From Halobacterium jilantaiense (GTDB lineage Archaea > Halobacteriota > Halobacteria > Halobacteriales > Halobacteriaceae), in the NCBI RefSeq assembly GCF_900110535.1, contig NZ_FOJA01000001.1:2143393-2207392 (forward strand): 64,000 nucleotides of DNA, in the 5' to 3' direction. The translations under genes and the position numbers were made by a program. The number at the start of each line of letters is the position of its first letter. Within the stretch, counting starts at the first letter, position 1. Below, one piece after another: positions 8,806 through 53,810 of this stretch. The notes under the pieces were generated by a model that had not been told where the DNA came from, made no database searches, and saw only the letters and a list, made by a program, of their open reading frames with translations.

Positions 8806-8831
8806 ACTGTGGAGAAATAGCCCGGAGCCGT

Positions 8832-8837: not shown

Positions 8838-8905
8838 GGGTTGCCAAGTGGTGGCTGGTGGAGTTCTGGGGAAACACCGATGCGTACCCGCGCCGACGCT
8901 CCCGT

Positions 8906-9926: not shown

Positions 9927-11033
9927 ATGTCGGCTCAGCCGCCCGACGACGCCCCGTCACCCGCCGCCTTCGGCGCACTCTTCGACGTCTACGAGGTGCG
10001 CCAGCAGGACGGCCGCGTGCTCTACTTCGGGCGCGCCGGCACGGACCGACGCACCATCGAACAGGAGCTCTGGCCGCTGTTCCGCGAACACGGCTACGAA
10101 GTGCAGCTCGCCAGCCGGACCGGCGAACTCGTGCTCGTCGCCGACCCCATCGACGCCACTAGTGACGGCATTCCCTGGAAGAACGTCGCGCTGTTCGTCG
10201 CGACGCTCGCGTCCACGCTGTTCGTCGGCGCGAGCTGGTACTACGTCGACCCGTTCTCCCCGGAAATCGTGCAGGCAATTCCGTTCACGCTCGCCATCTT
10301 GGGCGTCCTCGGCGTCCACGAACTCGGCCACTACGCGATGAGCCGGTACCACGACGTCGACGCCAGCCTCCCGTACTTCATCCCGTTCCCGTCGCTGTTC
10401 GGGACGATGGGTGCTGTCATCCGGATGCGCGGCCGGATGCCGAGCCGCAAGGCCCTCTTCGACATCGGTGCCGCCGGCCCGCTCGCCGGGCTGGTCGCCG
10501 CCGTCGTCGTCTCGGCCATCGGCCTCTCGCTGCCGCCGGTGTCGGTGCCGACCGACATCGCCACTTCGGCCTCGGCCGTCCGCATCGAGTTCGACTACCC
10601 GCTGCTGTTGCGCGGCATTGCAGCCATCCTCGGCGAACCGCTCGGGTACAGCGACCCCACGCGGTCCATCAATCCGGTCGTGATGGGCGGCTGGATCGGG
10701 ATGTTCGTCACGTTCCTGAACCTCCTGCCGGTCGGCCAACTCGACGGCGGCCACATCCTCCGGTCGCTGGTCGGCGAGACGGCGGGCCGCATCGCGCCCA
10801 TCGTGCCGACCGCGCTGTTCGGGCTCGGCGCTTACCTCTGGGTCGTCAGAGACGCCGGCAACGCCGCGGGCATCTGGCTACTCTGGGGCGTCCTCGCGTC
10901 CGTCGTCACGCTTTCCGGGAGCGTCGAACCGGTCGACGACCGGCCGCTCGACCGCCGCCGGATGGCGCTGGGCGTGCTGACGTTCGTCCTCGGCGCGCTC
11001 TGCTTCATGCCGCTCCCGATTCAGATTGTCTAG
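9927..11033 (+). CDS. M50 site-2-protease-family membrane metalloprotease
   Basis: 368 residues. After a soluble N-terminal region of about 85 residues come several membrane helices with the zinc motif HELGH (His131, Glu132, His135) and the third ligand in PVGQLDGGH (Asp273). There is no PDZ insert, so this is a different subclass from the other M50 gene in the window and closer to the EGY/archaeal S2P type. It should cut membrane-anchored substrates; the target is unknown. Its stop overlaps the convergent thiL stop by 4 nt at a CTAG. Confidence 0.88.
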   Translation: MSAQPPDDAPSPAAFGALFDVYEVRQQDGRVLYFGRAGTDRRTIEQELWPLFREHGYEVQLASRTGELVLVADPIDATSDGIPWKNVALFVATLASTLFVGASWYYVDPFSPEIVQAIPFTLAILGVLGVHELGHYAMSRYHDVDASLPYFIPFPSLFGTMGAVIRMRGRMPSRKALFDIGAAGPLAGLVAAVVVSAIGLSLPPVSVPTDIATSASAVRIEFDYPLLLRGIAAILGEPLGYSDPTRSINPVVMGGWIGMFVTFLNLLPVGQLDGGHILRSLVGETAGRIAPIVPTALFGLGAYLWVVRDAGNAAGIWLLWGVLASVVTLSGSVEPVDDRPLDRRRMALGVLTFVLGALCFMPLPIQIV

Positions 11034-11890
11034 TGCGTCCAGCCCTCGTCGGGGAGCGGGTCACCGTCCAGCAGAATCCCTGACTCCGTCACCTCACCGA
11101 CGACCGAGAGATCCACAGACAGCGCACCACGGGCCGCCTCGACGCGCTCCGGGGGGACCGTCGCGACGAGCTCGAAGTCCTCGCCGAACGTCACCGCCCG
11201 GTCCAGCGGGTCCGCGACCAGACCCTCTAGGTCGTCGGCGACCGGAATTCGGTCGCTGTCCACGTCGAACCCGCAGCCGCTGCCCTCTGAGAGCTGGTGG
11301 AGCGACCGAGCCAGCCCGTCGCTGGAGTCCATCATCGCCGTCGCGTGCCCGGCGAGCGCGCGACCGGCGGCCACGCGCGGCATGAACTGGAAGAGGGCGT
11401 TCGCTCGCTGCGTGTCCCCTCGCTCGAAGTACTCGATGGCCGCCGCGCTCCGCCCCAGAGAGCCCGTGACGACGACGGCATCGCCCGGCCGTGCGCCGTC
11501 CCGGCCGACCTGCCCGTCGGCGTCTCCGACGGCCGCCGTCGCGACCGTGAACTCGTCGTGGCCGTCGAGGTCGCCGCCGACGTACGCCGCGCCGACCGCG
11601 TCACACACCTCGTTCGCGCCCGCGACGAACTCCGAGAGCTCGCCCTCCTCGAACTCGGGTGCGGCGTAGGCGGCGACGGCCGCAGTGGCGTCGGCACCGG
11701 TCGCGGCGACGTCCGACAGCGACGCGCCGACCGCCCGCCAGCCGGCCGTGTACCGCGTTGTCCCCGGCGGGAAGTCGGTCGTCTCGTGCAGCATGTCGAT
11801 GGTGAGTGCCGTGCCGTCGACGACGGCCGCGTCGTCGCCGGCTCCCGACACGAGCCCACCGACGAGGTCCAGGGCCGCGCGCTCGTCCAT
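11030..11890 (-). CDS. thiL: Thiamine-monophosphate kinase
   Basis: 286 residues with the PurM/AIR-synthetase-like fold of ThiL: N-terminal GDDAAVVD (ATP and metal site), LSDVAATGADA, GGDL, VTGSLGRSAAA and the MMDSSDGLARSLHQL motif typical of the family. It makes thiamine diphosphate from thiamine monophosphate, the last step of vitamin B1 synthesis. No thi-box riboswitch is visible in the 172 nt before the start. Divergent from rps19e. Confidence 0.93.
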   Translation of the reverse strand: MDERAALDLVGGLVSGAGDDAAVVDGTALTIDMLHETTDFPPGTTRYTAGWRAVGASLSDVAATGADATAAVAAYAAPEFEEGELSEFVAGANEVCDAVGAAYVGGDLDGHDEFTVATAAVGDADGQVGRDGARPGDAVVVTGSLGRSAAAIEYFERGDTQRANALFQFMPRVAAGRALAGHATAMMDSSDGLARSLHQLSEGSGCGFDVDSDRIPVADDLEGLVADPLDRAVTFGEDFELVATVPPERVEAARGALSVDLSVVGEVTESGILLDGDPLPDEGWTH

Positions 11891-12032
11891 ACGCCGGATT
11901 GACCATCCCCACTCAAAAGCCCGCGGATACCCCCTCTGACGCCCCGATTGCCCTCGCTCCGAGCCGGACTGGAGACCGCCGCTCGGGGTCACGAGGCGTG
12001 CCCACGGGCCCGCACGACAGGCTAACGATGGC

Positions 12033-12038
12033 TTTAAA
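12033..12038 (+). promoter_or_regulatory. TATA box of rps19e
   Basis: TTTAAA, 25-30 nt before the rps19e ATG, placing the transcription start at or next to the start codon. Confidence 0.65.
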
Positions 12039-12062
12039 CGAATCAGGGACGACGTGCCTCCA

Positions 12063-12518
12063 ATGGCAACTCTCTACGACGCTCCCGCGGACGAGCTCAT
12101 CGACGAGCTCGCGGCGGACCTCGAAGACCGACTCGACGAGCCGGACTGGGCCGAGTACGCGAAGACGGGCGCGGGCCGCGAACTCCCGCCCGAGCAGGAG
12201 GACTTCTGGGCGACGCGCGCCGCCAGCCTCCTCCGGAAGGTTGCCGTCGACGGCCCCATCGGTGTGAAGCGGCTGTCCTCCGCGTACGGCTCCACGACCG
12301 ACGGTTCGACCCGCTACGTCGTCGCGCCGTCGAAGACGTCCTCCGGCTCCCGGAACATCGTCCGAACCATCCTCCAGCAGCTCGAGGACGAGGGTCTCGT
12401 CGAGCAGCGCAACGACCGCGGCCGCGTCGTCACCGGTGAGGGTCGCAGCCTCCTCGACCAGACCGCCGCCGACGTCATCGCCGACCTCGACCGTCCCGAA
12501 CTCGAACGCTACGCGTAA
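12063..12518 (+). CDS. rps19e: Small ribosomal subunit protein eS19
   Basis: 151 residues. Matches eS19 throughout: an N-terminal helix MATLYDAPADELIDELA, PDWAEYAKTGAGRELPP with the conserved W-x-x-x-x-K-T-x-x-x-x-E-x-x-P pattern, FWATRAASLLRKVAVDGPIGVKRL and ILQQLEDEGLV. It belongs to the head of the 30S subunit and takes part in late rRNA maturation. It heads a likely three-gene unit with a PDCD5 protein and a PP-loop ATPase, the usual archaeal order. The inner ATG at 12063 is preferred over one three codons earlier. Confidence 0.95.
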   Translation: MATLYDAPADELIDELAADLEDRLDEPDWAEYAKTGAGRELPPEQEDFWATRAASLLRKVAVDGPIGVKRLSSAYGSTTDGSTRYVVAPSKTSSGSRNIVRTILQQLEDEGLVEQRNDRGRVVTGEGRSLLDQTAADVIADLDRPELERYA

Positions 12519-12623
12519 CGCGTCACGGGACCGTCCCGGTTCTGTTCTTCCGACCGCGAGCCGCGGCACTGGTCCGCCGGGTGCGCAACAATTAACGGGA
12601 TTCGCGGCGAACTGTCTCCCAGT

Positions 12624-12980
12624 ATGAGTGGGAACCCGGACGACGAACGACTGGAAGAGCTCCGCAAGCAGAAGAAAGAACAGCTCAAGCAGCAACAGCA
12701 GGGCGGCGGCGACGGCCAGCGTGAAGCCCAGCAGCAGGCCCAGCAGCAGGCCGAACAGCAGAAGCAGGCGCTGCTCAAGCAGAACCTCACCGACGGCGCT
12801 CGCAAGCGACTGAACACCATCCGGATGAGCAAGCCGGAGTTCGCCGAGAAGGTCGAACAGCAGGTCGTCGCGCTCGCGCAGTCCGGCCGGCTCCAGGAGC
12901 GCATCGACGAGGACCAGATGAAAGAGCTGCTGCGCGAACTCAAGCCCGACTCCCAGAGCTTCAACATCAACCGCCGATAG
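12624..12980 (+). CDS. DNA-binding protein of the PDCD5/TFAR19 family
   Basis: 118 residues. A charged, Gln-rich N-terminal helix (residues 6-55, many EQLKQQQQ-type repeats) is followed by the compact PDCD5 core: [26 protein letters not shown] and [19 protein letters not shown]. Archaeal members bind nucleic acid; a ribosome or chromatin role is proposed from their constant link with eS19. The next gene starts at the base after its stop codon. Confidence 0.92.
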
Positions 12981-13574
12981 ATGGAGCTGGGACTGCTCTA
13001 CAGCGGCGGAAAGGACTCCACGCTCGCAGCCCTCGTACTCGACCGGTTCTACGACATCACGCTCGTCACTGCGCACTTCGGCATCACCGACGAGTTCGAG
13101 CACGCACGCGAGGCCGCGGCAGCGACGGATTTCGAGTTCCGCGCACTGGAACTCGACCGCGGGGTCGCCGACGACGCCGTCGAACTGATGCTGGACGACG
13201 GCTACCCGCGGAACGGCATCCAGCACGTCCACGAGCAGGCGCTGGAGGCGGTCGCGGGTCTGGGGTTCGACGCTATCGCTGACGGCACCCGGCGGGACGA
13301 CCGCGTGCCGACGGTGTCGCGGGCGCAGGCCCAGAGTCTGGAGGACCGCCACGACGTCGACTACATCTCGCCGCTCGTCGGGTTCGGCCGCGGGGCGGTC
13401 GACCGCCTCGTGGACGCCGAACTGGACGTCGAAGTCGGGCCGAGCGAGGAGATTCCCCGGGCCGACTACGAGGCGGAGCTGCGGGCGCTGCTCGCGGAGG
13501 AACGAGACGAGGACGCCATCCGCGAGGTGTTCCCGGACCACGACCAGACGTACGTCCACGGCCTCCGGGACTGA
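12981..13574 (+). CDS. PP-loop ATPase of the COG2117 type
   Basis: 197 residues with the adenylating P-loop SGGKDS at residues 8-13, then a Rossmann-like alpha-beta core and DGTRRDDRVPTVSRAQAQSLE. Proteins of this kind activate a substrate carbonyl with ATP, typically for thiolation or amidation of tRNA or a cofactor. I recall it as COG2117, once annotated as a tRNA-modifying subunit, without direct proof. The ATG lies directly after the stop of the PDCD5 gene, and the rps19e-PDCD5-PP-loop order is widely conserved in archaea, so a job linked to translation is likely. Confidence 0.85.
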   Translation: MELGLLYSGGKDSTLAALVLDRFYDITLVTAHFGITDEFEHAREAAAATDFEFRALELDRGVADDAVELMLDDGYPRNGIQHVHEQALEAVAGLGFDAIADGTRRDDRVPTVSRAQAQSLEDRHDVDYISPLVGFGRGAVDRLVDAELDVEVGPSEEIPRADYEAELRALLAEERDEDAIREVFPDHDQTYVHGLRD

Positions 13575-13662
13575 CCGGACGCCCGGCTCGACATCTCGGC
13601 TGTCGGCGTACCGCCTCCCGTAATCGAACCACTCTTCTCCGGCCCGCGGTTCCCTCGACGTG

Positions 13663-14538
13663 ATGCAGTCAGGGCTGGCCTACGCGCTCGCCGCCGCCGG
13701 CATCTGGGGCGGCTACCTGTTCGCCCTGAAGCGGTACTTCGCCGGTATCCACGGGGCCGTCCTCACGCTGTTCGTGAACGTCTCGGCCATCCTCTGGTAC
13801 CTCCCCGTCGCCGCGGCGACTGGCGACGGGGGAATTCCGTCGTTTCCGCCGCTCGAACCGACCGCTGCGGGCGTGCTGGTGGCGACGATTCTCCTCGGCG
13901 GAGCCGGGTTCCTGCTGTCGGTGCACGCGCTCTCGGTCGGCGACGTCTCCTACGTCGCTCCAATCGCGAAAATCGTGCCCGTGTTCGTGCTCCCAATCGA
14001 GGTCTTGGGTCTCGGTGCCGTCCTCGACCCGCTGTCGGTCCTCGGGGTCGCCGTCGCTACGACGGCCGTCTACCTCGCGAACTACGAGGGCGGCGACCTC
14101 GCCGAGCCGCTCCGGCGCGCCGCGACCTCGCGGGCCGCCCAGCTCGCTTTGCTGTCCGCGATGCTGTACGCCGTCAGTGACGTCGGCCGCCGGCTCGTCC
14201 TTGGCGACTACACGTTCCCGACGCGGCTCTGGGTGCCGACGTTCCTCGGCGGGGTCGCCATCGCGGTCCTCCCGCTCGCGCTGCGACGCTGGCCCAGCGA
14301 GGGCGTCCGCCCGCACCTCGCACTGTTCGCAATCGCCGGGTCCGGCGTCGCACTCGGGGAGCACGTCACGGCGCTCGCGTTCGCCGCCGCGCCCGCCAGC
14401 ATCGTCTCCACGCTCGTCAACGGCCAGGCCATCGTCGCCGTCCTCCTCGGCTGCCTGCTCCTCGGCGAACCGGGTCTCCGCCGCCGCCTCGCCGCCGCTG
14501 TTCTGGCGGTGGTCGGCGTCGGGATGATAGCGGTCTAA
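13663..14538 (+). CDS. EamA/DMT-family transporter
   Basis: 291 residues with about ten membrane helices arranged as two related halves (residues 1-140 and 155-291). The second half ends VNGQAIVAVLLGCLLLGEPGLRRRL, the typical EamA signature (TLVNGQ...LGE). Members of the drug/metabolite transporter superfamily export or import small metabolites; the substrate is unknown. A GTG directly precedes the ATG and could also be used. Confidence 0.85.
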   Translation: MQSGLAYALAAAGIWGGYLFALKRYFAGIHGAVLTLFVNVSAILWYLPVAAATGDGGIPSFPPLEPTAAGVLVATILLGGAGFLLSVHALSVGDVSYVAPIAKIVPVFVLPIEVLGLGAVLDPLSVLGVAVATTAVYLANYEGGDLAEPLRRAATSRAAQLALLSAMLYAVSDVGRRLVLGDYTFPTRLWVPTFLGGVAIAVLPLALRRWPSEGVRPHLALFAIAGSGVALGEHVTALAFAAAPASIVSTLVNGQAIVAVLLGCLLLGEPGLRRRLAAAVLAVVGVGMIAV

Positions 14539-14771
14539 TCGGCCGTCGGAGCGCCGGTATCGGGCGGACTGAAGGGTCGAGCCTGTGGACGAAGACGGAC
14601 GAAGCAAGCACCGCAGCGAACGGAGTGAGCGAGGAGCACAGCGAGTGCATCAAGTCCACGGGCTCGGGGATTTCGAAGTTATCTTCCCCGCACTCCTGTC
14701 CGCGCTCACGTTTCGCCACACAGAACCAGAGAACGGAAGCATTGAAGCGCGGGACGCGACAACGACGCTCC
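14539..14771. other. Intergenic region with an imperfect palindromic motif
   Basis: No gene seen. It contains CAGCGAACGGAGTGAGCGAGG at 14614-14634, closely similar to a motif at 2311-2334 in another intergenic region. Such AGCGAACGGAGTGAGCG strings are common between haloarchaeal genes; function unknown. Confidence 0.45.
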
Positions 14772-16070
14772 ATGTACGACCGACTCAAGGGGTTCAGGGA
14801 TTTCTACCCCGAGGAGATGGGGCCGCGCCGGGTGGCGATGGACGCCCTCGAGGATTCGGCCCGGAGCTACGGCTTCCGAGAGGTGGGCACGCCTGCCCTG
14901 GAGTCCACGGAGATGTACGTGGACAAGTCCGGGGAGGGCATCGTCGAGGAGCTGTACTCGTTCACTGACCAGGGCGGCCGCGACGTGGCGCTGACGCCAG
15001 AGCTGACGCCGACCGTGGCGCGGATGGTGGTGGCGAAACAGCAGGCGCTGTCGAAGCCAATCAAGTGGTACTCGACGCGGCCGTTCTGGCGCTACGAGGA
15101 GCCCCAGCAGGGCCGGTTCCGGGAGTTCTACCAGACGAACGTCGACATCTTTGGGTCGAGTGACCCGCGGGCGGACGCGGAAGTGCTGGCCGTCGCCGCC
15201 GACGGTCTCACCGACCTCGGGCTGACGGGCGAGGACTTCGAGTTCCGGGTCTCCCACCGGGACATCCTCGGCGGCCTGCTGGAGGCATTCGACGCCGACG
15301 TGGATATCGAGGAGGCCATCCGGACCGTCGACAAGCGCGAGAAGATCGAGCGCGCCGAGTACCTCGACGGGCTCGCGGCGGCCGGCCTCTCCTACGACCA
15401 GGCCGAACAGTTCGACGACCTGCTCGCCGGCGACGACCTCGACGCACTCGTCGAGTTCGCTGGGACCGACCGCGTCGAGGCTGCCGTCTCGAACCTCCGG
15501 AACGTCCTCGAGGCCGCCGAGAACTTGGGCGTCCGGGAGTTCTGTGAGGTCTCGCTGACCACCGCTCGCGGGCTGGACTACTACACCGGCGTCGTCTTCG
15601 AGTGCTTCGACTCGACGGGCGAAATCGGGCGCTCGGTGTTCGGCGGCGGGCGCTACGACGACCTCATCGAGAGCTTCGGCGGCCAGCCGACGCCCGCGGT
15701 CGGCGTCGCGCCCGGCCACGCCCCGCTGAACCTCCTGCTGGAGCGCGCCGGCGTGCTCCCCGAGGGCGAGTTCACCGCGGACTACTACGTCCTCCAGGTC
15801 GGCGACACCGAGGCCGAGGCCGCGGCGGTCGCGCAGGCGCTCCGCGACCGCGGGAACGTCGTCGACACCGACATCTCCGGTCGGAGCTTCGGTGCGCAGA
15901 TGAACTACGCCGACAACGTCGGTGCCGACACCGTCGTCATCGTCGGCGAGCAGGACCTCGCGGACGGCAACGTCACGGTCAAGGACATGGCCAGCGGCGA
16001 CCAGACGACCGCGCCGGTCGACGACTTCCCGGGCGAGCTCGACAGTCCGACCGTCGACGACTTCGAGTAG
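14772..16070 (+). CDS. hisS: Histidyl-tRNA synthetase
   Basis: 432 residues. Class II aminoacyl-tRNA synthetase for histidine. Motif 1 region GFREVGTPALE, motif 2 PFWRYEEPQQGRFREFYQ, the histidine-specific TARGLDYYTGVVFE and motif 3 FGGGRYDDLIE are all present. The C-terminal 90 residues form the anticodon-binding domain (YYVLQVGDTEAE, GADTVVIVGEQD). The ATG at 14772 gives the family's usual MYDRLKGFRDFYPEEM start. truA begins one base after its stop, so the two are an operon. Confidence 0.96.
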   Translation: MYDRLKGFRDFYPEEMGPRRVAMDALEDSARSYGFREVGTPALESTEMYVDKSGEGIVEELYSFTDQGGRDVALTPELTPTVARMVVAKQQALSKPIKWYSTRPFWRYEEPQQGRFREFYQTNVDIFGSSDPRADAEVLAVAADGLTDLGLTGEDFEFRVSHRDILGGLLEAFDADVDIEEAIRTVDKREKIERAEYLDGLAAAGLSYDQAEQFDDLLAGDDLDALVEFAGTDRVEAAVSNLRNVLEAAENLGVREFCEVSLTTARGLDYYTGVVFECFDSTGEIGRSVFGGGRYDDLIESFGGQPTPAVGVAPGHAPLNLLLERAGVLPEGEFTADYYVLQVGDTEAEAAAVAQALRDRGNVVDTDISGRSFGAQMNYADNVGADTVVIVGEQDLADGNVTVKDMASGDQTTAPVDDFPGELDSPTVDDFE

Positions 16071-16071
16071 G

Positions 16072-16863
16072 ATGGTTCGCCGGGCGTTCCGCGTCGCCTA
16101 CGACGGTCGGCCCTATCACGGCTTCCAGCGCCAGCCCGACGTGACCACGGTGGAAGGCGAACTGTTCGGTGCGCTCCGCCGGCTGGACGTGTTCAGCGGC
16201 GAGAAGCCCCCAGGCTACGCCGCCGCGGGACGCACGGACGCCGGCGTCTCGGCCCGCGCGCAGACCGTCGCCTTCGACGCGCCCGAGTGGCTGACGCCGT
16301 ACGCGCTGAACGGCGAACTCCCGACGCCAATCCAGACCTGGGCGCACGCCGACGCGCCGGACGACTTCCACGCGACCCACGACGCGAACTGGCGGGAGTA
16401 CCGGTACTTCTGGTATGCCCCCGCCGTCGACGACGACCGCGCCGAGCGCGCACTCGCCAGCCTCGCCGGCGAGCACGACTTCCACAACCTCACGCCCGAC
16501 GACGAGTACACCGTCCGCGACCTCGACGCCGGCCTCGCTCGCGAGGGCGACTTCCTCGCCGTCACCGTCCGAGCCAGCGGCTTCTGCCGGGAGCTCGTCC
16601 GGCGCGCCGTCTCGCTCGTCCGGGAGGTCACAGCGTCGGGTGACTTCGGCCGCATCGAGACGGTCCTGAGCGACGAGTCCGTGGCCGGTCCCGAGGGCGT
16701 GCCGCCCGCGAACCCCCACCCGCTCGTGCTCTCCGATGTCGACTACGACTTCGACTTCGCCGTGGACGCGGACGCCGTTGCGCTGGCGCGCGAAACGTTT
16801 GAGGCGCTCCACAACGACCGTCGGTCCCTCGCGCGGGTCGCCCGCCACATCGCTGACATCTAA
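16072..16863 (+). CDS. truA: tRNA pseudouridine synthase A
   Basis: 263 residues. Isomerises uridines at positions 38-40 in the anticodon stem-loop. N-terminal RRAFRVAYDGRPYHGFQRQP and the catalytic motif AAGRTDAGVSA (nucleophile Asp56) are diagnostic. Follows hisS with a 1-nt gap. Its stop overlaps the convergent M28 peptidase gene by 4 nt (CTAA). Confidence 0.95.
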   Translation: MVRRAFRVAYDGRPYHGFQRQPDVTTVEGELFGALRRLDVFSGEKPPGYAAAGRTDAGVSARAQTVAFDAPEWLTPYALNGELPTPIQTWAHADAPDDFHATHDANWREYRYFWYAPAVDDDRAERALASLAGEHDFHNLTPDDEYTVRDLDAGLAREGDFLAVTVRASGFCRELVRRAVSLVREVTASGDFGRIETVLSDESVAGPEGVPPANPHPLVLSDVDYDFDFAVDADAVALARETFEALHNDRRSLARVARHIADI

Positions 16864-18179
16864 CCCCAGTTCTCGGGCCAGACGCCGGCGGCCTCCATCC
16901 CGGGCCGCATGCCGTCGTCTGCGAGGCGGTCGCGCAGCGCGTCCGCGTCGGGGCGCGGAACGGCTTCGTCCTCGCCTGCGAGTTCGCGGACGAGCAGCGC
17001 GGCGAGCATCCCGTGTTCGCGGATGTTTCTGGGGTCGGCCTTGTCCCGGGTGTCGGCGTGCGTGTGGCCCCAGCCGCGGCCGCGCTCGGGCGTGACGGAG
17101 TGCAACTGGACGGCCGGGACGCCCGAGGTGAGGAACGGCCAGTGGTCGCTGTACGGGTGGACGGTGTCCCGCACCTCGATGGGGTGGCCGGTGTCGTCGC
17201 TGACCGTCTCCAGCACGCCCTCGAAGTGGTCGGTGCCGTGGCAGAACGCCCGCATCGTCCGGTAGCGGCCGGCACCGTCGAGGTTCACGACCGCGCGCAC
17301 GGACTCGGGGTCGAGACTGCCGGCGAGCGCGCTCGCGCCCTGGAGCCCGACCTCTTCGGCACCGACGGTCGCGAGCCGCACCCTCGTGTCGAGGTCGAGG
17401 TCGGCCAGCACGCGGGCCGCGGCGACGAGCGCGGCGACCCCGCAGCCGTTGTCGAGTGCGCCCTCCGCGATGTCGTGGGCGTCGTGGTGGGCGAGCACGA
17501 CGACCTCCTCGTCCGTATCGGGGCCGAGCGCGCCCTGTGTGTTCGTGCCCTCGCCCGGGCCCGTCCGGGCGTCCACGGAGAGTGCGACCTCGCCGCCGCG
17601 GTCGGCGTACTCTTGGAGCCAGTCCCCGGTCTCGGTGGAGACGCCGACGGCGGGAATCTCGCCCTCGCGGCCGAACCGCAGCGAGCCTGTCGGCGGGAGC
17701 TGGCCGTCCCTGTGGTTGTAGAAGACGAAGGCGGCGGCTCCGCCGTCGACAGCACGCCCGTACTTCTCCATCCGGTGAACGAGCCGACCGCCCGGCGGGC
17801 TGTCTGTCGACGCGAGGACGACGGCGTCCGCGACGTCGACGCCCTCGAAGCCGTCTTCGGTCCCGTACCCGACGTCCACCAGGCGGCCGGCCACGTCGCC
17901 GGCCGGCGAGTACGGGAGCGCGATACCCTCGAACTCGCGATCGGTCGGCTGCGTGACGCGCAGCGAGCAGCCGCCCCGCGTCCAGACCGGGAGGGCGAAC
18001 TGGTCGGTGTGGACATCGCGCGCTCCCGCCTCGCGGAGCGCGTCCGCGGTTATCTCGGCTGCACGACGCGCTCCCTCGTGGCCAGCGAGCCGGTGGTCGA
18101 GTTCGGTGAGCGCGGTGAGAACTGTCCATGGCGTCTCGTCGGTCCACGCCAATCCGAGGGCGCGCGCTTCCTCAGTCAT
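16860..18179 (-). CDS. M28-family zinc metallopeptidase
   Basis: 439 residues without a signal peptide. A protease-associated-like region (residues 70-205) interrupts the M28 fold. Zinc-site segments are VVVLAHHDAHDIAEGALDNGCG, VGAEEVGLQG and VHPYSDHWPF, i.e. the expected His/Asp, Glu-Glu, and Asp-His ligands of co-catalytic aminopeptidases. HAHADTRDKAD-type C-terminal residues (here HTHADTRDKAD) complete the site. It probably removes N-terminal residues from peptides in the cytoplasm. Convergent with truA, divergent from pepF. Confidence 0.88.
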   Translation of the reverse strand: MTEEARALGLAWTDETPWTVLTALTELDHRLAGHEGARRAAEITADALREAGARDVHTDQFALPVWTRGGCSLRVTQPTDREFEGIALPYSPAGDVAGRLVDVGYGTEDGFEGVDVADAVVLASTDSPPGGRLVHRMEKYGRAVDGGAAAFVFYNHRDGQLPPTGSLRFGREGEIPAVGVSTETGDWLQEYADRGGEVALSVDARTGPGEGTNTQGALGPDTDEEVVVLAHHDAHDIAEGALDNGCGVAALVAAARVLADLDLDTRVRLATVGAEEVGLQGASALAGSLDPESVRAVVNLDGAGRYRTMRAFCHGTDHFEGVLETVSDDTGHPIEVRDTVHPYSDHWPFLTSGVPAVQLHSVTPERGRGWGHTHADTRDKADPRNIREHGMLAALLVRELAGEDEAVPRPDADALRDRLADDGMRPGMEAAGVWPENWG

Positions 18180-18250
18180 GCCGTCAGATACGAGGGCGGG
18201 ACGGTTAATTTCGGGGGCAATCGCCGGCAAACACGCTGCCGTTTGCGAAC

Positions 18251-18256
18251 GTTTAA
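18251..18256 (+). promoter_or_regulatory. TATA-like box of pepF
   Basis: GTTTAA, 27-32 nt before the pepF ATG. A short inverted repeat GCAAAC...GTTTGC (18227-18246) lies just upstream and could be an operator. Confidence 0.5.
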
Positions 18257-18282
18257 CCGACCGCACGCGAACGCTGAGGCGT

Positions 18283-20073
18283 ATGAGCAGTGTCCCCGAA
18301 CGGGAAGAGCTGGACGACGAGCACAAGTGGGATTTGGAGTCCATCTACGCCACTGACGAGGAGTGGGAGGAGGGCTTCGAGGCCCTTCAGACGAAACTCG
18401 AGGACTTGGAGGCCTACGAGGGCCGACTCACGTCGGACGGCGAGACGCTTCTGGAAGCCCTCGAACTCCGTGACGAAATCTTCCGAGAGGCCGAGAAGGT
18501 GTCCTCGTACGCGCGGATGCGCTCGGACGAGGACACCCGCGACCAGGAGTACCAGGCGCTGCGGGCGCGCGGCCAGAGCCTGATGGCGGACGTCTCTTCG
18601 GCCACCTCGTTCTTCGACCCCGAGCTCCAGGACTGCACGCGCGAGGAGCTGCAGGCGCTGGTCGAGGAGACGCCCGGCCTCGCGGAGTACGAGCACTACT
18701 TCGACGACGTGCTGCGGATGAAACCCCACACGCGCTCCGCGGAGGTCGAGGAGCTGCTGAGCGACCTCGGCGAGGTCTTCGGTGCGCCGAGCGACGCCTA
18801 CAGCATGCTGACGGACGCCGACCTGGAGTTCCCGACTGTCGAGGACCCCGACGGCGACGAGGTCGAAATCTCGCAGGCGAACTTCACGAAGCTCCTCAAG
18901 AACCCGGACCGCGAGTTCCGGCAGACCGTTCACGAGGAGTTCTTCGAGAGCATCAGCGGCGTCCGGAACACCATCGGCTCCACGATGAAGAGCCAGATGA
19001 AGCGGGACGTCAAGCTGGCGCAGGCCCGGAACTACGACACCGCCCGGGAGGCCGCCCTCGACGACGGCAACATCCCGACCGAAGTCTACGACACGCTCGT
19101 CGAGACGGTCGACGACAACCTCGACAAGGTCCAGCGCCACGCCGACCTCAAGCGGGAGGCGCTCGGCGTCGACGAACTCGAGATGTGGGACCTCTACATG
19201 CCCATCGTGGACTCCGAGAGCCCCGAAATCGGCTACGAGGAGGCCCGCGAGCACGTCGTCGAGGCGGTCGCGCCGCTCGGCGAGGACTACCAGCAGCGGG
19301 TCGCCGAGGGCCTGGACTCGAACTGGGTGGACGTCTACGAGAACCGCGGGAAGCGCTCGGGCGCGTACAGCGGCGGGACCTACGACACCCAGCCGTTCAT
19401 CCTGATGAACTACCAGGACGACATCTCCTCGATGTTCACGCTGGCCCACGAGCTCGGCCACAGCCTCCACAGCCAGTACACCAGCGAGGAGCAGCCGTAC
19501 GTCTACTCGAACTACGAAATCTTCGTGGCCGAGGTCGCCTCGACGGTCAACGAGGCGCTGCTCGTGAACCACCTGCTGGACACGGTCGAGGACGACCACT
19601 TCCGCCGCCACATCCTCAACGAGTATCTGGAGCGCTTCCGGTCGACGCTCTACCGCCAGACGCTGTTCGCGGACGTCGAGCAGCGCCTCCACGAGCTCAC
19701 CCGGGAGGGCGAGGCGCTGACGCCCGACCGCATCGACGAGGTGTACGGCGACCGCAAGCGCGCCTACTACGCGAACGCGAACGTCGACGACCACATCGAG
19801 CGCGAGTGGATGCGCATCCCGCACTTCTACTACAACTTCTACGTCTTCCAGTACGCGACCGGTATCTCGGCGGCCGTCGCGCTCGTCGAAGACATCCTCG
19901 ACGAGGGCCAGCCCGCCGCGGACCGCTACCTCGACTTCCTGCAGCGCGGGTCCAGCGAGTACCCGCTCGAACTGCTCCGGGACGCGGGCGTCGACATGTC
20001 CACGAGCGAGCCCATCGAGCGCGCGCTCGGCGTCTACGACGACTACCTCGGCGAAGCCGAGGACCTCGTCTGA
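18283..20073 (+). CDS. pepF: Oligoendopeptidase F (M3 family)
   Basis: 596 residues, full length. N-terminal helical PepF domain (residues 1-200), then the M3 catalytic domain with the zinc motif HELGH (His389-His393) followed by EIFVAEVASTVNEALL, which supplies the third ligand glutamate, and RIPHFYYNFYVFQYATG near the substrate site. It degrades short cytosolic peptides, fitting its position upstream of the proteasome ATPase gene. The start at 18283 is set by the TATA box and the typical SSVPEREELDDEHKWDLESIY opening. Confidence 0.94.
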   Translation: MSSVPEREELDDEHKWDLESIYATDEEWEEGFEALQTKLEDLEAYEGRLTSDGETLLEALELRDEIFREAEKVSSYARMRSDEDTRDQEYQALRARGQSLMADVSSATSFFDPELQDCTREELQALVEETPGLAEYEHYFDDVLRMKPHTRSAEVEELLSDLGEVFGAPSDAYSMLTDADLEFPTVEDPDGDEVEISQANFTKLLKNPDREFRQTVHEEFFESISGVRNTIGSTMKSQMKRDVKLAQARNYDTAREAALDDGNIPTEVYDTLVETVDDNLDKVQRHADLKREALGVDELEMWDLYMPIVDSESPEIGYEEAREHVVEAVAPLGEDYQQRVAEGLDSNWVDVYENRGKRSGAYSGGTYDTQPFILMNYQDDISSMFTLAHELGHSLHSQYTSEEQPYVYSNYEIFVAEVASTVNEALLVNHLLDTVEDDHFRRHILNEYLERFRSTLYRQTLFADVEQRLHELTREGEALTPDRIDEVYGDRKRAYYANANVDDHIEREWMRIPHFYYNFYVFQYATGISAAVALVEDILDEGQPAADRYLDFLQRGSSEYPLELLRDAGVDMSTSEPIERALGVYDDYLGEAEDLV

Positions 20074-20136
20074 GCCGCCAGCCGAGGCGTCGATTCCGGG
20101 CGGTAGCGCGGCCGAAGCGTCCGAAAAGCGACCTGC

Positions 20137-20155
20137 GGTAGGCGTTCAGCCTACC
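20137..20155. repeat. Perfect 7-bp inverted repeat between pepF and pan
   Basis: GGTAGGC-GTTCA-GCCTACC, a perfect stem of 7 bp with a 5-nt loop, 64 nt after the pepF stop and 41 nt before the pan start. It could be an RNA hairpin at the end of the pepF message or an operator of pan. Confidence 0.6.
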
Positions 20156-20195
20156 CAAAGGAACTTCTACGCGGGGACCCTAGCGTGGCCAACGA

Positions 20196-21428
20196 ATGTC
20201 GCGTAGTCCCTCACTGCCGGACCGGCCGACGCTCGACGTCGACCCCGAGTCGACGCCACAGGAGCGCCTCGACGCCCTCCAGGATCACTACGGGGAGATT
20301 CTGGCGGTCCACGAGGAGCTCCGAGAGCAACTCGACGACGTCGAGGCTCGCCGCGAAGAGCTCCGCGAGGAGGTCAACCGCCTCCAGCGCGAGAACGAGA
20401 CGCTGAAGACCGCATCGCTGTACCTCGCAACCGTCGAGGACCTGCCCGAGGACGGCAGCGCCGTCATCAAGCAGCACGGCAACAACCAGGAAGTGCTGAC
20501 CGAGCTGTCGCCGCGGCTCGCCGACGACCTCGACGTGGGCGACCGGGTCGCCATCAACGACTCGTTCAGCGTCCAGCGCGTCCTCGACGACGAGACGGAC
20601 GCCCGGGCGCAGGCGATGGAGGTCGACGAGTCGCCGACCGTCGACTACGCGGACATCGGCGGCCTCGACGAGCAGCTCCGGGAGGTCCGGGAGGCCGTCG
20701 AGGACCCGCTCGTGAACCCCGAGAAGTTCGCGGCCGTCGGCGTCGAGCCGCCGAGCGGCGTGCTGCTGCACGGGCCGCCGGGCACCGGGAAGACGATGCT
20801 CGCGAAGGCCGTCGCGAAGCAGACCGACGCCACCTTCATCAAGATGGCCGGCAGCGAACTCGTGCGGAAGTTCATCGGGGAGGGCTCCCGGCTGGTCCGG
20901 GACCTCTTCGAGCTCGCCGAGCAGAAGGAGCCCGCCATCATCTTCATCGACGAGATCGACGCTGTCGCCGCGAAGCGGACGGACTCGAAGACGTCGGGCG
21001 ACGCCGAGGTCCAGCGCACGATGATGCAGCTGCTCTCGGAGATGGATGGCTTCGACGAGCGCGGCGACGTCCGCATCATCGCCGCCACCAACCGCTTCGA
21101 CATGCTGGATTCCGCCATCCTCCGGCCGGGCCGCTTCGACCGCCTCATCGAGGTGCCCCACCCGGACGAGGAGGCCCGCGAGCGCATCCTCGAGATTCAC
21201 GCCGCGGAGATGAACGTCGCCGACGAGGTCGACTTCTCGGACCTCGCGCGGGACACCGACGGCTTCTCCGGCGCGCAGCTCGCCAGCCTCGCCACCGAGG
21301 CGGGGATGTTCGCCATCCGCGACGACCGCCAGGAGGTCCGCCGCGAGGACTTCGACGACGCCCACGAGAAGCTGATGGCGGAGGGCGACGACGAGGGCGG
21401 TCCGAGCTACCCGAGCTACATCCAGTAG
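20196..21428 (+). CDS. pan: Proteasome-activating nucleotidase (PAN)
   Basis: 410 residues. AAA+ ATPase that unfolds proteins and feeds them to the 20S proteasome. Coiled coil at about residues 25-72, OB-fold to about 135, then the AAA domain with Walker A GPPGTGKT (193-200), Walker B IIFIDEID (248-255), and the arginine-rich second region AATNRFDMLDSAILRPGRFDR split over about 285-310. The C-terminus ends Ser-Tyr-Ile-Gln; canonical proteasome gate-opening HbYX tails have Tyr as the penultimate residue, whereas here it is third from the end. Haloarchaea usually have two PANs; which one this is cannot be told here. Confidence 0.94.
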   Translation: MSRSPSLPDRPTLDVDPESTPQERLDALQDHYGEILAVHEELREQLDDVEARREELREEVNRLQRENETLKTASLYLATVEDLPEDGSAVIKQHGNNQEVLTELSPRLADDLDVGDRVAINDSFSVQRVLDDETDARAQAMEVDESPTVDYADIGGLDEQLREVREAVEDPLVNPEKFAAVGVEPPSGVLLHGPPGTGKTMLAKAVAKQTDATFIKMAGSELVRKFIGEGSRLVRDLFELAEQKEPAIIFIDEIDAVAAKRTDSKTSGDAEVQRTMMQLLSEMDGFDERGDVRIIAATNRFDMLDSAILRPGRFDRLIEVPHPDEEARERILEIHAAEMNVADEVDFSDLARDTDGFSGAQLASLATEAGMFAIRDDRQEVRREDFDDAHEKLMAEGDDEGGPSYPSYIQ

Positions 21429-21476
21429 ACGACCTGTATCCGAGCGCTCTTCTACGGCCGGCCGGCTAGTCCGGGT

Positions 21477-21950
21477 ATGCCTATTCGAGTGGCGTGGGGG
21501 ACCGGGTCCGCCCCGACCGAGATGGCGGCCTACGACGCCGCGCTCGCGGACGCGAACCTCCACAACTACAATCTCGTCGCCGTCTCCTCGGTGGTGCCGG
21601 CCGACGCCAGCGTCGAGGCCGTCGGCACCGCGCCCGACCTCGGGCCCGCCGGGAACAGGCTGACGGTCGTCGAGGCGCACGCCGACACCGCCGGTCCGGG
21701 TCGCGCGAGCGCGGCGCTCGCGTGGGCGGCCCGCGGCGACGACCCCGGATTGTTCTACGAGGCGGCCGGCGAGACGAGCCCGGACGACGTGGAGTCGCGG
21801 GTGACAGCCGGCATCGACGCGGGCCTCGAACTGCGGGACTGGGACGCCGACGCCCCCGAGGTCAGGTCCGTGACAGTTGAGGCCGAACCGGGCGAGTACG
21901 CCGCGGCGGTCGTTCTGGCGGCGTACGGAGACAGCGAGCCGCTACTCTGA
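21477..21950 (+). CDS. pdaD: Pyruvoyl-dependent arginine decarboxylase
   Basis: 157 residues. Made as a proenzyme that cleaves itself between two serines (Ser37-Ser38 in LVAVSSVVP) to create the pyruvoyl cofactor. N-terminal PIRVAWGTGSAPTEMAAYDAAL and the C-terminal LFYEAAGE and AAVVLAAYG segments match the family. It converts arginine to agmatine; in haloarchaea this feeds the agmatine route to polyamines and to agmatidine, the modified base of tRNA-Ile2. Confidence 0.93.
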   Translation: MPIRVAWGTGSAPTEMAAYDAALADANLHNYNLVAVSSVVPADASVEAVGTAPDLGPAGNRLTVVEAHADTAGPGRASAALAWAARGDDPGLFYEAAGETSPDDVESRVTAGIDAGLELRDWDADAPEVRSVTVEAEPGEYAAAVVLAAYGDSEPLL

Positions 21951-22007
21951 CCGCGAGTTCTTCGCACACTACAAGGACTATACGTGGCCGCCCCTTATTA
22001 GAGACGC

Positions 22008-22373
22008 ATGCACGGGAACGCGCCGTACAGCGGGCCAGAGAACGCCACGTCCGACCTCACCGGGGACCAGCGCCGCGCGCTCAGGACGAGCATCGCGCAG
22101 ATCGCGTCCCGAACGCGAGAGTTCCTCCCGGACGAGTACGTCGTCGGCTCCGAGATATCCAGTGGTTCCAGCGGCGTCCAGGTCACCGTGGCCGTACGGC
22201 CGCCGGCCGGCAACCCCGTCAGCGCGGGGTTCACGCCCGAGTTCGAGAACCTCGCGGACGACGACCTCATCCCGAACGAGGACCGGGAGGAGGTCGCCCG
22301 CGGCCTCGCCGCGAGCGCAGCACTTCAGGTCAAGCACGCCCTCGGCGACGACGTTCCCGAGACGGCCAGGTAA
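22008..22373 (+). CDS. Conserved haloarchaeal protein (DUF5811-like)
   Basis: 121 residues: MHGNAPYSGP, then a helix LTGDQRRALRTSIAQIASRTREFLPDEYVVGSE and a beta segment VQVTVAVRPPAGNPVSAGF (quoted in parts). No catalytic motif is visible. I recall this as the DUF5811 family, found widely in haloarchaea; no function is known. A TATA-like TTATTAG sits about 10-15 nt before the ATG. Confidence 0.8.
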   Translation: MHGNAPYSGPENATSDLTGDQRRALRTSIAQIASRTREFLPDEYVVGSEISSGSSGVQVTVAVRPPAGNPVSAGFTPEFENLADDDLIPNEDREEVARGLAASAALQVKHALGDDVPETAR

Positions 22374-22418
22374 CGCGGCACAGAGCGCACGCCGACACTC
22401 GTTTCTCCAGTCTCGCTC

Positions 22419-23102
22419 TCACGCGCTGACGGCGATGACGCCGATAGCGACGACGGCAGCCGCGGCGAACACAGCGACACCGGTAGTCGAGTCGACAGCA
22501 GGGACTGCGGCGTAGCCCGCGACGGCTGCTGCGGCCGCCGCACCGCCGACGCCGACACTCGCGACCAGGTGGCGAGCGACCGTGCGCCGCGTTCCGGCTC
22601 CTTCGGGTGCGCGACGACCCACGGCCGTGGCGACGGCCGCTGTGTCCCACGAGAGCACGGCCAACCAGACGGCGACGGCCGGGTACCAGACGGGGACCGG
22701 CACGAGAACGCTCCGCAGCAGGCCGGCCGCGAGGAGCGCCGCGAACCCCGCTTCGATGAGGGCGCGCGTCCACGCACGCCGTACCGGCGTCACCGCGAAC
22801 GCGAGGACGAGCACGCCGAGAACGGCGAGTACGAGCGGGCCACGGACGCGGAGCGGAAGCGGCGCGACAGCGGCGAGACCGACGGCAACCCAGAGACCGA
22901 CCGCGCCGAGCGCGCCACACGCCACCCGTGCAGCGGTGCCGCTCCGGTGGGCGACGCGAACGCACAGGAGCACTCCGGCCGAGACGCCGGCGACTGCCGC
23001 AACCCCTCTGGTGAGCTGGGTCGTGGCGACGAGTCCGGCTGTGGCGGTGGCGAGCGCGACGGCTACGACGCTGCCGGCCAGCGACGGGTTCTGGTCGCTC
23101 AC
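22419..23102 (-). CDS. Membrane protein at the end of the DUF58 operon (DUF7519-like)
   Basis: 227 residues, six to seven hydrophobic segments almost end to end, small residues (Ala/Val/Gly) dominant and no soluble domain. It is the last of four overlapping genes: its ATG overlaps the DUF58 stop codon by 4 nt (ATGA). In haloarchaea a protein of this type, which I recall as DUF7519, regularly closes DUF58 operons. Probably part of a membrane complex; function unknown. Confidence 0.75.
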   Translation of the reverse strand: MSDQNPSLAGSVVAVALATATAGLVATTQLTRGVAAVAGVSAGVLLCVRVAHRSGTAARVACGALGAVGLWVAVGLAAVAPLPLRVRGPLVLAVLGVLVLAFAVTPVRRAWTRALIEAGFAALLAAGLLRSVLVPVPVWYPAVAVWLAVLSWDTAAVATAVGRRAPEGAGTRRTVARHLVASVGVGGAAAAAAVAGYAAVPAVDSTTGVAVFAAAAVVAIGVIAVSA

Positions 23103-50467: not shown

Positions 50468-50540
50468 GGGCCGGTGGGGTAGCTTGGTATCCTTCGGCCT
50501 TCGGGTGGCCGTAACCGCGATTCGAATTCGCGCCGGCCCA
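50468..50540 (+). tRNA. tRNA-Pro (anticodon CGG)
   Basis: Folds as a full 73-nt cloverleaf: acceptor GGGCCGG/CCGGCCC with discriminator A, D-arm with GG and AGCTTGGT loop, anticodon stem CGGCC/GGCCG with loop TTCGGGT (anticodon CGG, codon CCG), a 4-nt variable region, and T-arm CGCGA-TTCGAAT-TCGCG. CCA is not encoded. No intron. It directly precedes a 450-nt gene-free stretch and a lower-GC restriction-modification island, so it is a plausible integration point; no repeat of its 3' end was found downstream. Confidence 0.93.
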
Positions 50541-50992
50541 CTTCTCCCGCAATTCGACTCGATTGGTGACTTCTTTCGCTATTCAGCTAGCCGTGAGTGC
50601 GCCCTCGTGAGCGAAGCGATCGGACACTCGCGAGGTCCGGGCTCCGGGGTGATTTGGGCGTCGCGTCGGTCCACGCTCCCCGTATCTCTGATGGTCAGGA
50701 CGGCTCTGCGGAGTGTGGTCTGGGTGCGTCTCTGCAGCACTTCCGCCTCGTGCGCGCAGCAGCTCGTCGGTTTCTCGGGTCACCCCGTCTGCGACTACGC
50801 GTTCGCTCGCGAGGAGGCAACCGGACCCTCTTCGGGGCTGTGACCCGAAGGCCTCAGACCGGGATTGGTCGACGCGTGGCGCACCGACCACGCGGTGCCA
50901 CTGTTCGCGGGTGCGTCAAGAGCAGGGGGGCGTCGTGGTGCGCCACCTCGTAGACTGCTTGAGTGCGTGCCTAGCGGTGCCCTGTGGGCGAG
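50541..50992. other. Gene-free stretch between tRNA-Pro and the restriction-modification island
   Basis: About 450 nt without a convincing reading frame; the open frames here lack acidic haloarchaeal composition and recognisable motifs. It contains GAGCGAAGCGATCGG-type short imperfect palindromes. It may be eroded mobile DNA, but no integrase remnant can be identified. Confidence 0.5.
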
Positions 50993-51862: not shown

Positions 51863-51917
51863 ATGCGAGTACGGACGCTTTCCCCCGATAAACAATCAAT
51901 CTTCGAACGCCGATACA

Positions 51918-51931
51918 TAGGTAACTACCTA
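51918..51931. promoter_or_regulatory. Palindromic operator candidate upstream of the restriction gene
   Basis: TAGGTA-AC-TACCTA, a perfect 6-bp inverted repeat with 2-bp spacer. It shares the consensus TAGGTR-N2-YACCTA with the site at 53505-53518. It lies some 25-30 nt further upstream than the TATA-like element of the restriction gene, a position more usual for activation than repression. Confidence 0.6.
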
Positions 51932-51978
51932 GCTACACACGCCCCCAGATCCACGGAGGAGACGAGAGAAACGGAGAT

Positions 51979-52761
51979 CTAGAACTCAGTGAGAGACCGT
52001 TGCCGGACGGGTTCGAGTCGCTCCTCGACGACGTCGCGGAACTCCTCGTTCAGTTCGTACCCAACGCACCTGCGGCCCGAATCGAGGGCTGCGTACGCGG
52101 TCGTTCCCGAACCCAGGAACGGGTCGAGAACTGTGTCGTCCTCGTCCGTCGAGAGTTCAACGATGCGGTCAACAAGCGCGACTGGGTAGGGGGCTTTGTG
52201 GAGGACGTTCTGCCCGACCGACCCGCGCTTCACTGGCTGCCGCCACAGGTTTCCGAGTCGGTGCCCGGACCCGACCGCGGGGTCTTCTGACCCATTCGAC
52301 CCGCGTCCGTCACGGAATTTGTGGTCCTTCGATTTCGAGAGGAAGACGACGTACTCCTTCTTGTTCACGACGTTTCGCTCGGTCATCCCCGCGATGGCCG
52401 TCGGCTTGTACCACGTGACCATATCCTGCAACACGAACCCGCACTCCTCGGCTCGCTCCGCGATGTGGAACGGGAGCAGTTGGAGGTCACCTCGGTCCAT
52501 GACGGTGTCGACGACGACCCACATCGTCCCGTCTTCGGAGAGCGCGTCATAGCACTCTTGCCAGACTCGCTGCAGCCGCTCGTGGTATCGCTCGTACGAT
52601 TCGTCACTCGTCCCGATCTGGTTCTCGTGGCCGTAATCCTTCAAATCCCAGTAGGGCGGTGACGTGACGACGGATTGGACGGAGCCCTCGTCGACGCTCT
52701 CCATGTCCTCGCTCGAACGCCAGTGTACCTTCAGCCCGTCGTACGCATCGAGGCCGGGCAT
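51979..52761 (-). CDS. Site-specific DNA methyltransferase (beta class)
   Basis: 260 residues. Catalytic motif IV TSPPYW at residues 33-38 comes before the SAM-binding motif I DPFLGSGTT at 213-221, i.e. beta-class order, and the residues between include the target-recognition part. TSPPY is typical of N4-cytosine methyltransferases, though some N6-adenine enzymes have it. It should protect host DNA from the adjacent nuclease. Its ATG overlaps the TGA of the preceding methyltransferase-like gene by one base, so the two proteins are made together. GC content is lower than the genome norm. Confidence 0.88.
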   Translation of the reverse strand: MPGLDAYDGLKVHWRSSEDMESVDEGSVQSVVTSPPYWDLKDYGHENQIGTSDESYERYHERLQRVWQECYDALSEDGTMWVVVDTVMDRGDLQLLPFHIAERAEECGFVLQDMVTWYKPTAIAGMTERNVVNKKEYVVFLSKSKDHKFRDGRGSNGSEDPAVGSGHRLGNLWRQPVKRGSVGQNVLHKAPYPVALVDRIVELSTDEDDTVLDPFLGSGTTAYAALDSGRRCVGYELNEEFRDVVEERLEPVRQRSLTEF

Positions 52762-53486
52762 CAGTCCACCACCTCTCCGCGGAGTGTTGTGATATCGAGT
52801 CCATCCACTTCACGGTCTTCGCCGGCGATGGTCGCTGCGAGGGTGTGGTCTCCGTTCACCAACTGAACCGTCTCTCCCTCACTGGACCCCGCGAGTACAC
52901 ATCGGCGCACAGCCTCTTCGAGAGGGAGTTGGTTCGTCTCATTGACTTCTTGAGTGTCGGTCTGTGTCCGGTCTTCTTCCAGCCAGACGTTGCCGGGGTC
53001 TTTTCCGTCCTCGTTGTATCGACTCACCGCGCTATCGTGATAGGCGCTGTTGCCCGTCTCGCGCTCGCCGCCCCACTCGTGGCCCTGATAGACGTGTGCG
53101 GTCCGAATGCGGTCTTTGTGGAACTGGTACTCGCGTTTGTCCTTCACGAGAAAGAGAATCTCGTCGTAGGCGCTCTCCATGTCGGCTCCGCGGTCGTCCC
53201 ACGTGTGGAGTGTGATCGTGTTCTTCAGAACGAGATTCGACTCCTCGCGGGCAGCGTCGGCTGCGGCCATCGAAACGGGCCACATCTGCCCGTCGCGGTA
53301 ATCGTTGGGTGCCACAACCCAGAGGGTCTCGGTGGCGTCCATCCGGTCGTACAGCGACGCCCACAGCCCACTCGTTTCGTCCAGCACTCCGTCTAGTGAC
53401 GACGCAGCGGAGACGATACTCGTGAGATCGACGAGGAACATTCGATTGCTTCTATCGTCCGGGTCTGGGGGACTTGAGTGCTTCAT
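52761..53486 (-). CDS. Methyltransferase-like paralogue lacking catalytic motifs
   Basis: 241 residues. Although it has neither (S/D)PPY nor F-x-G-x-G, its second half parallels the next gene's product: SAYDEILFLVKDKREYQFHKD against KKEYVVFLSKSKDHKFRD, GKDPGNVW against GHRLGNLW, and LPLEEAVRRCVLAGSSEGETVQLV against the region before DPFLGSG. Motif I is replaced by LVNGDHT and motif IV by LVDLTS. I infer a catalytically dead methyltransferase fold acting as a recognition or regulatory subunit. The TGA overlaps the ATG of the active enzyme. A palindromic operator overlaps its promoter. Confidence 0.65.
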   Translation of the reverse strand: MKHSSPPDPDDRSNRMFLVDLTSIVSAASSLDGVLDETSGLWASLYDRMDATETLWVVAPNDYRDGQMWPVSMAAADAAREESNLVLKNTITLHTWDDRGADMESAYDEILFLVKDKREYQFHKDRIRTAHVYQGHEWGGERETGNSAYHDSAVSRYNEDGKDPGNVWLEEDRTQTDTQEVNETNQLPLEEAVRRCVLAGSSEGETVQLVNGDHTLAATIAGEDREVDGLDITTLRGEVVD

Positions 53487-53504
53487 TCTTTCTCCCGATT
53501 TAGG

Positions 53505-53518
53505 TAGGTGCTCACCTA
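53505..53518. promoter_or_regulatory. Palindromic operator between methyltransferase operon and HTH gene
   Basis: TAGGTG-CT-CACCTA, a perfect inverted repeat extended by one pair on each side (7 bp arms, 53504-53519). It is 19-32 nt before the ATG of the methyltransferase-like gene and so overlaps its core promoter, but lies upstream of the TATA-like AATACA of the HTH gene at 53571. Same consensus as 51918-51931. Confidence 0.65.
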
Positions 53519-53570
53519 CGCATGGGTGTGTGAGAATACACTTTTCCACGGGCGCAGACGAAACCCCCTC

Positions 53571-53810
53571 ATGGGCCTGACGCTGACGGACGCAAAGCGA
53601 GACGTTCTCTCTCTCCTCCACGAGAAACCACGCCACGGCTACATGCTCGCCAAAGAGCTAGGGGTCCAAGGCAGTACGATCTACGAGCACCTGGAGCAGT
53701 TAGACGACGCAGGCTACGTCGCGGGGAGGGAGGAGGGGCGGCGCGAAGTATACGAACTCACACAGAAGGGAGTGCTCACAGTCGAGGCCGCTCAGCTCGA
53801 CGAGTCGTGA
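53571..53810 (+). CDS. Small winged-helix regulator (PadR-like), probable restriction-modification controller
   Basis: 79 residues: LTLTDAKRDVLSLLHEKPRHGYMLAKELG, the recognition helix QGSTIYEHLEQLDDAGYV and a wing REVYELTQKG. It is a minimal PadR-like winged helix without a C-terminal dimer arm. Divergent from the methyltransferase operon with a palindrome in the 84-nt gap, the typical layout of a controller gene. Binding to that palindrome is inference. Confidence 0.8.
   Translation: MGLTLTDAKRDVLSLLHEKPRHGYMLAKELGVQGSTIYEHLEQLDDAGYVAGREEGRREVYELTQKGVLTVEAAQLDES

Follow-up and report, generated by a model that had tools for sequence, protein, structure and literature searches.

In Halobacterium jilantaiense, a small restriction–modification (RM) island probably carries its own dedicated autogenous controller, the winged-helix protein C, which would read a single operator type; this is the best overall explanation of our findings. 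The island lies in the window, that is, the whole 64,000-nucleotide stretch of DNA analysed, and consists of the genes for a putative restriction endonuclease (R), for two methyltransferase-like proteins (MB and MA) and for C. A sequence-only reading had pointed out a palindrome shared by the promoter regions of the nuclease and methyltransferase genes, and had proposed that the small PadR-like gene encodes the regulator that acts on it. Indeed, the palindrome is present as an exact match in both promoter regions, and the assignment to the PadR-like protein is supported by orthologs that are confined to such islands and by the retention of the sites there. On these comparative grounds, we consider it highly likely that the island sites are the dedicated operators of C, to which C would bind.

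The gene content suggests a type II-like RM unit, in which MB is clearly a type II-like methyltransferase by sequence and R is a putative nuclease, as judged from its D-x14-D-x-K pattern and weak fold matches. R matched no Pfam, NCBIfam or PADLOC family. In an alignment of 12 homologs (A1; 60–74% identity), residues D106, D121 and K123 were invariant. The fold search returned weak PD-(D/E)xK matches, and since all Foldseek E-values were >0.001 and VIA Z was at most 6.5, we describe the protein only as PD-(D/E)xK-like. R represents a conserved haloarchaeal nuclease-like family, with the motifs DVKGGEGQSIGHLLVP (mostly invariant) and WSERN[AS]RNTKSP. A candidate viral relative of R, a single match of 31 residues, was discarded as spurious. 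The degenerate MA always precedes the catalytic MB, and in Haloarcula rara both form a single 499-aa protein (L085:3387-4886, minus strand). This fusion makes it probable that MA and MB are the subunits of a single heteromeric enzyme, with one non-catalytic half.

Table 1 Genes, palindromes, operators and promoter elements of the RM island (window coordinates)
Feature	Sequence or size	Position	Strand	Basis and remarks
R, putative restriction endonuclease	289 aa	50993..51862	-	invariant IDF-x13-DVK (PD-(D/E)xK-like)
R TATA-like element	TTTATC	51887..51892	-	centre ~27 nt before R start codon; sequence and conserved T-A-T columns
R operator	TAGGTAGTTACCTATGTATCGG	51910..51931	-	contains the R-side palindrome; core ends 47 bp before R start codon; matrix and homologs
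Palindrome, R side	TAGGTAACTACCTA	51918-51931		exact in sequence
MB, catalytic beta-class N4/N6 DNA methyltransferase	260 aa	51979..52761	-	TSPPYW, DPFLGSGTT; PF01555 E 8e-46; PADLOC MTase_II
MA, degenerate methyltransferase paralog	241 aa as called	52761..53486	-	PF01555 E 5e-7; MB paralog; start may be M16, 53441
Palindrome, C/MA side	TAGGTGCTCACCTA	53505-53518		exact in sequence
C/MA operator	TAGGTGCTCACCTACGCATGGG	53505..53526	+	contains the C/MA-side palindrome; kept in 14 homologs; leave-one-out matrix score 21.0
C TATA-like element	CTTTTC	53541..53546	+	~28 nt before C start; homologs CTTATC or CTTTTC
C, PadR/ArsR-like winged-helix protein, proposed controller	79 aa	53571..53810	+	PF03551; structure model; linkage to R/MA/MB

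The two palindromes are the only perfect 6-N2-6 dyads in the region 50.9–53.9 kb, and the whole window has 37 such dyads. For TAGGTRNNYACCTA (TAGGTR-N2-YACCTA), a second-order Markov model of the window predicts 0.017 exact copies in the 2.95-Mb genome, where 3 were observed; for both promoter gaps together, it predicts ~1e-6 exact matches to the shared pattern. The extended form TAGGTRNNYACCTAYGYAT has exactly two copies in the genome, both of them in the island, at the R and C promoters, and each is oriented along the transcription of the gene behind it (minus strand at R, plus strand at C). The third 14-bp copy lies at C1:1572693, flanked by genes for a ferredoxin-like and a secreted protein (L001), and its score with the composite matrix was 4.7 versus 15–32 for the true island sites. 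We rejected it as a further target because of this low score and because the DNA alignment with the sister species stops before the copy.

Comparison with homologous islands indicates that the 14-bp palindrome is only part, the left part, of the conserved element. The unit best conserved among homologs, TAG(G)-N7-CCTA-TGCA-TAGG, comprises three half-sites and keeps a fixed distance to a TATA-like element. Its 12-bp core, CCTA-TGCA-TAGG, is conserved best, and the third half-site, TAG(G), lies 7 bp upstream of this core. The window operators have a perfect left box and a right half-site that has drifted. Both promoter gaps contain the operator in all 14 islands with C. We then used a leave-one-out matrix, which was trained on the C-side sites from the other 13 genomes and scanned over each locus. 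The R promoter ranked first in 14/14 loci, each of ~7,000–23,000 positions; the best match was at the expected place and strand in ten of them, and in the other four it was a nearby or opposite-strand match in the same promoter. The R operator of the window scored 24.8, and the next best match elsewhere in the locus, outside the MA–C gap, scored 3.3.

Regulation of promoters by the system's own methyltransferase is known for some RM systems, so the sites could also be targets of the island methyltransferase, with methylation rather than C regulating the promoters. TAGG/CCTA, the sole 4-mer common to all 28 sites, would suit such a target. Yet the 28 sites share no 5-mer or 6-mer, nor any palindromic 6-mer in which four bases are fixed, so this comparison does not support a methyltransferase target within the operator. 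Moreover, three half-sites with a fixed spacing to TATA are conserved, which goes far beyond a type II target, and methylation would leave unexplained why the sites are missing in an H. rara island that has R and M and lacks C. We regard the methylation explanation as very improbable; promoter methylation in RM systems has a section of its own in a recent review (PMC12707154).

The homolog search covered 391 class-level genomes, 13 of which, including H. jilantaiense, encode a full-length R; in all 13, R is accompanied by MA, MB and C, and the gene order is the same. With a fourteenth island from Halorubrum laminariae, the arrangement R-MB-MA on the minus strand and C on the plus strand holds in 14/14 islands with C, which cover several families. 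The 14 genomes are not independent, as six form one close group (G150, G031, G005, G166, G077, G262) and two are near-copies (G006/G176), and the trees of R, MB and C are weakly resolved. The sequence-only reading would have been undermined by homologous islands that keep the genes and lose the sites; all 14 islands with C retain both sites. The island of Haloarcula rara, the one C-less control with R and M, has R (62% identical) and the fused MA-MB; its R–MA gap contains no operator (best matrix score 0.6 versus 15–32). G185, which has MA and MB only and no R, is also without the operator. A decayed island in G362 (L047) has broken R and MA genes and, beside a remnant C gene, a site scoring 20.9 (at about 4390-4412 of the reverse-complemented locus). 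The exclusive linkage and the patterns in these three genomes tie the operator to C and not to a host factor or to R and M alone. The palindromes might nevertheless serve a host regulator whose gene lies outside the island, or be alike by chance, and the third exact 14-bp copy elsewhere in the genome speaks for this; but the number of copies expected by chance is far below one per genome, the composite site occurs at the island only, and the sites accompany the island in several families and are not present in the H. rara island, which has no C. Such an origin of the sites is hardly credible to us.

C itself exceeds the gathering score of the PadR family PF03551 (41.5 bits; cut-off 27), and its orthologs match this family in 13/13 cases (E<=0.001). 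The structure model (pLDDT 91) is a winged helix with the order H-H-H-E-E-H and is closest in fold to SmtB, CzrA and hsRosR, so that C resembles PadR-/ArsR-like regulators both by profile and by model. It differs from them in being just 79 aa long, in its single short C-terminal helix (residues 65–78 in the monomer model) and in its linkage to an RM unit. The best profile matches of C were to the PadR, TrmB and ArsR winged-helix families, with no HTH_3/XRE match. Orthologs show hardly any variation in the recognition-helix region, QG[SP]T-Y-[EQ]H. The orthologs are 60–66% identical in the 391-genome draw and 76% in H. laminariae, and all are found only beside R/MA/MB; the next best intact relatives have at most 47% identity. 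Upstream of the distant relatives (36–47% identity), a TAGG-N6-CCTA box at <=1 mismatch was not found, except for one poor match (L068). A search for viral relatives of C found none.

Two side observations concern the C family. The orthologs fall into two recognition-helix types, QGST and QGPT (53664-53693; alignment A2), and in this small sample the QGST islands seem stricter in their TAGGT half-sites. In L065, L067 and L069, two TGACCGGTCAG-like palindromes each lie upstream (about 1391-1500) of distant small winged-helix relatives of C, which suggests that self-regulation via palindromes is widespread in the family.

Read along transcription, the R and C promoters have a common order of elements: TAG(G)-N7-CCTA-TGCA-TAGG, a spacer of about 18 bp, the TATA-like element and the start codon. 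When each genome's R promoter was aligned with its C promoter on the 12-bp core, agreement outside the core was 53% in register, versus 17–35% at every shift from −12 to +12 out of register. The columns common to both promoters include the TATA-like T-A-T at core +31 to +33 (+30 to +34 region; 14 homologs), and a second, weaker conserved element lies beside TATA in both, at core +19 to +26. At R, the distance from the operator core to the start codon is 47 bp in 13/14 genomes (in two of these with the R start moved to an in-frame GTG) and 46 bp in the remaining one. At C, it is 47–50 bp in homologs and 44 bp in the window, where the spacer between operator and TATA is ~3 bp shorter than in homologs. 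The TATA-like elements at R and C lie ~27–29 nt before the start codons, which is the distance expected for leaderless or nearly leaderless haloarchaeal transcripts, and the position of the R element is consistent with a leaderless R transcript. By their common layout and TATA distance, the two genes thus share the same wiring.

The MA and C genes diverge from a gap of 84–118 bp in the 14 islands. In the window, the operator in this gap lies 19–32 nt before the called MA start and abuts or overlaps the MA core promoter. Our positions agree with the earlier description, which placed one palindrome at the core promoter of the methyltransferase operon and the other upstream of the TATA-like element of the nuclease gene, with the MA TATA element itself being uncertain. 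The MA start is uncertain as well (TCAAGT in the first codons; H. rara starts at M16), and the MA part of the scheme is for this reason weaker than the R/C part. The TCAAGT sequence (53472-53477, minus strand, MA codons 4–5) is nearly invariant as DNA in 14 MA genes, though both serine codons could vary. The fused MA of H. rara does not show it at its start. It might act as an element of a 5′ leader or of the start site, or as a target of methylation.

A position just upstream of the core promoter is the usual place for an archaeal activator. One or more dimers of C would probably bind TAG(G)-N7-CCTA-TGCA-TAGG, and at C and R, where this operator precedes the core promoter at a fixed distance, binding is predicted to activate transcription. 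Between the divergent genes, this DNA also borders on, or overlaps with, the BRE/TATA region of the MA-MB operon, so that this operon should be repressed. The signs can be compared with those of OxsR from Haloferax, whose motif leads to activation when located upstream of BRE/TATA and to repression when located downstream (PMC9426492); by this rule, C should activate itself and R. The sequence-only reading had allowed for repression of the methyltransferase with activation of the regulator and the nuclease, or for the reverse, and by analogy with OxsR the former fits the site positions better. Upon entry into a new cell, the methyltransferase would be made first; C would then accumulate, turn on C and R, and throttle M. 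Speculatively, the weaker conserved element near the C TATA may serve self-limitation. Taken with all its signs and its timing (C and R activated, MA repressed), we lean slightly towards this scheme being correct.

Two other modes of action of C have to be weighed against it. C could be a pure repressor of all three promoters that blocks TBP/TFB and keeps both R and M low, like RptR, a described small RM-linked repressor with repeated short palindromes (PMC12255303); the second conserved element beside TATA could then be the occluding site. However, the operator ends ~18 bp upstream of TATA with constant spacing, which suits contact with the basal machinery better than occlusion, and repression of both R and M yields no ordered start, so we consider a pure repressor unlikely. 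Alternatively, C could repress MA alone, and R and C would rise indirectly as the competing divergent promoter is silenced. One bacterial C system behaves in this way (reviewed in PMC12707154), and MA and C are indeed divergent over a short gap; but a conserved operator of its own precedes R, at a distance of ~1.6 kb in the window, and no divergent promoter adjoins it, which makes this mode of action quite improbable. A controller that activates C and R and represses MA remains our preferred explanation.

Bacterial C proteins activate C and R, with negative feedback, and repress M in some systems (PMC12707154). The island resembles the systems of the C.PvuII, C.BamHI and C.Esp1396I kind in three respects: a type II-like RM unit includes a small gene for a dedicated regulator; this regulator's promoter and those of R and M have palindromic operators; and the layout is compatible with activation of C and R and repression of M. 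Whereas bacterial C proteins have a lambda-cI-like HTH, act on bacterial promoters and are usually co-transcribed with R (PMC12707154, PMC12255303), the island protein is a PadR/ArsR-like winged helix, its gene is divergent from M, the promoters are of the TATA type, and R has a separate promoter at the far end. The island C thus lies outside the bacterial C family, as it does not have the defining lambda-cI/XRE-type HTH fold, and resembles its members by layout. With RptR, the RM-proximal regulator of type I islands in Gammaproteobacteria, it has in common that a small RM-linked regulator, dimeric in RptR and probably also in C, is combined with short palindromic repeats in an island promoter (PMC12255303). 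RptR differs in being bacterial, in belonging to type I RM, in its TAGCTA site and in being described as a repressor only, with the E. coli type I island being repressed (PMC12255303). OxsR of Haloferax volcanii, a single-domain winged helix of the TrmB family, is likewise haloarchaeal, and the position of its site relative to BRE/TATA predicts the sign of regulation (PMC9426492); unlike the island C, whose composite sites are in its own island only, it is a stress regulator of many host genes with a CG-rich motif.

In the literature searched, we found no PadR-type RM controller. The main texts of two papers on archaeal RM systems (PMC10609329, PMC6471742) do not discuss controllers, and a supplementary table of PMC10609329 lists a control-protein class. 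How archaea avoid self-destruction when an RM system enters the cell has hardly been studied. We judge the chances to be evenly balanced that an archaeal RM unit independently evolved a winged-helix controller, which through one operator type would act on three TATA/TBP promoters, activating C and R and repressing the methyltransferase. If so, the logic of C proteins would have arisen two or more times, in proteins of unrelated fold that act on unrelated transcription machineries, and the island would be convergent with the bacterial systems while adapted to eukaryote-like transcription. The system is compact, with two operators and one small protein; 13 natural variants and one controller-less island exist, and haloarchaeal genetics is available.

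The island has a G+C content of 58–64%, versus mostly 65–73% in its flanks, and a tRNA-Pro gene (50468-50541) lies ~0.45 kb from its R end. Among the genomes drawn, the 12 others of the genus lack the island. Direct repeats were considered as island ends beside the tRNA gene, and no pair was convincing. The low G+C content, the nearby tRNA-Pro and the absence from the rest of the genus indicate that the island was probably acquired horizontally, and the tRNA-Pro site is likely an integration hotspot.
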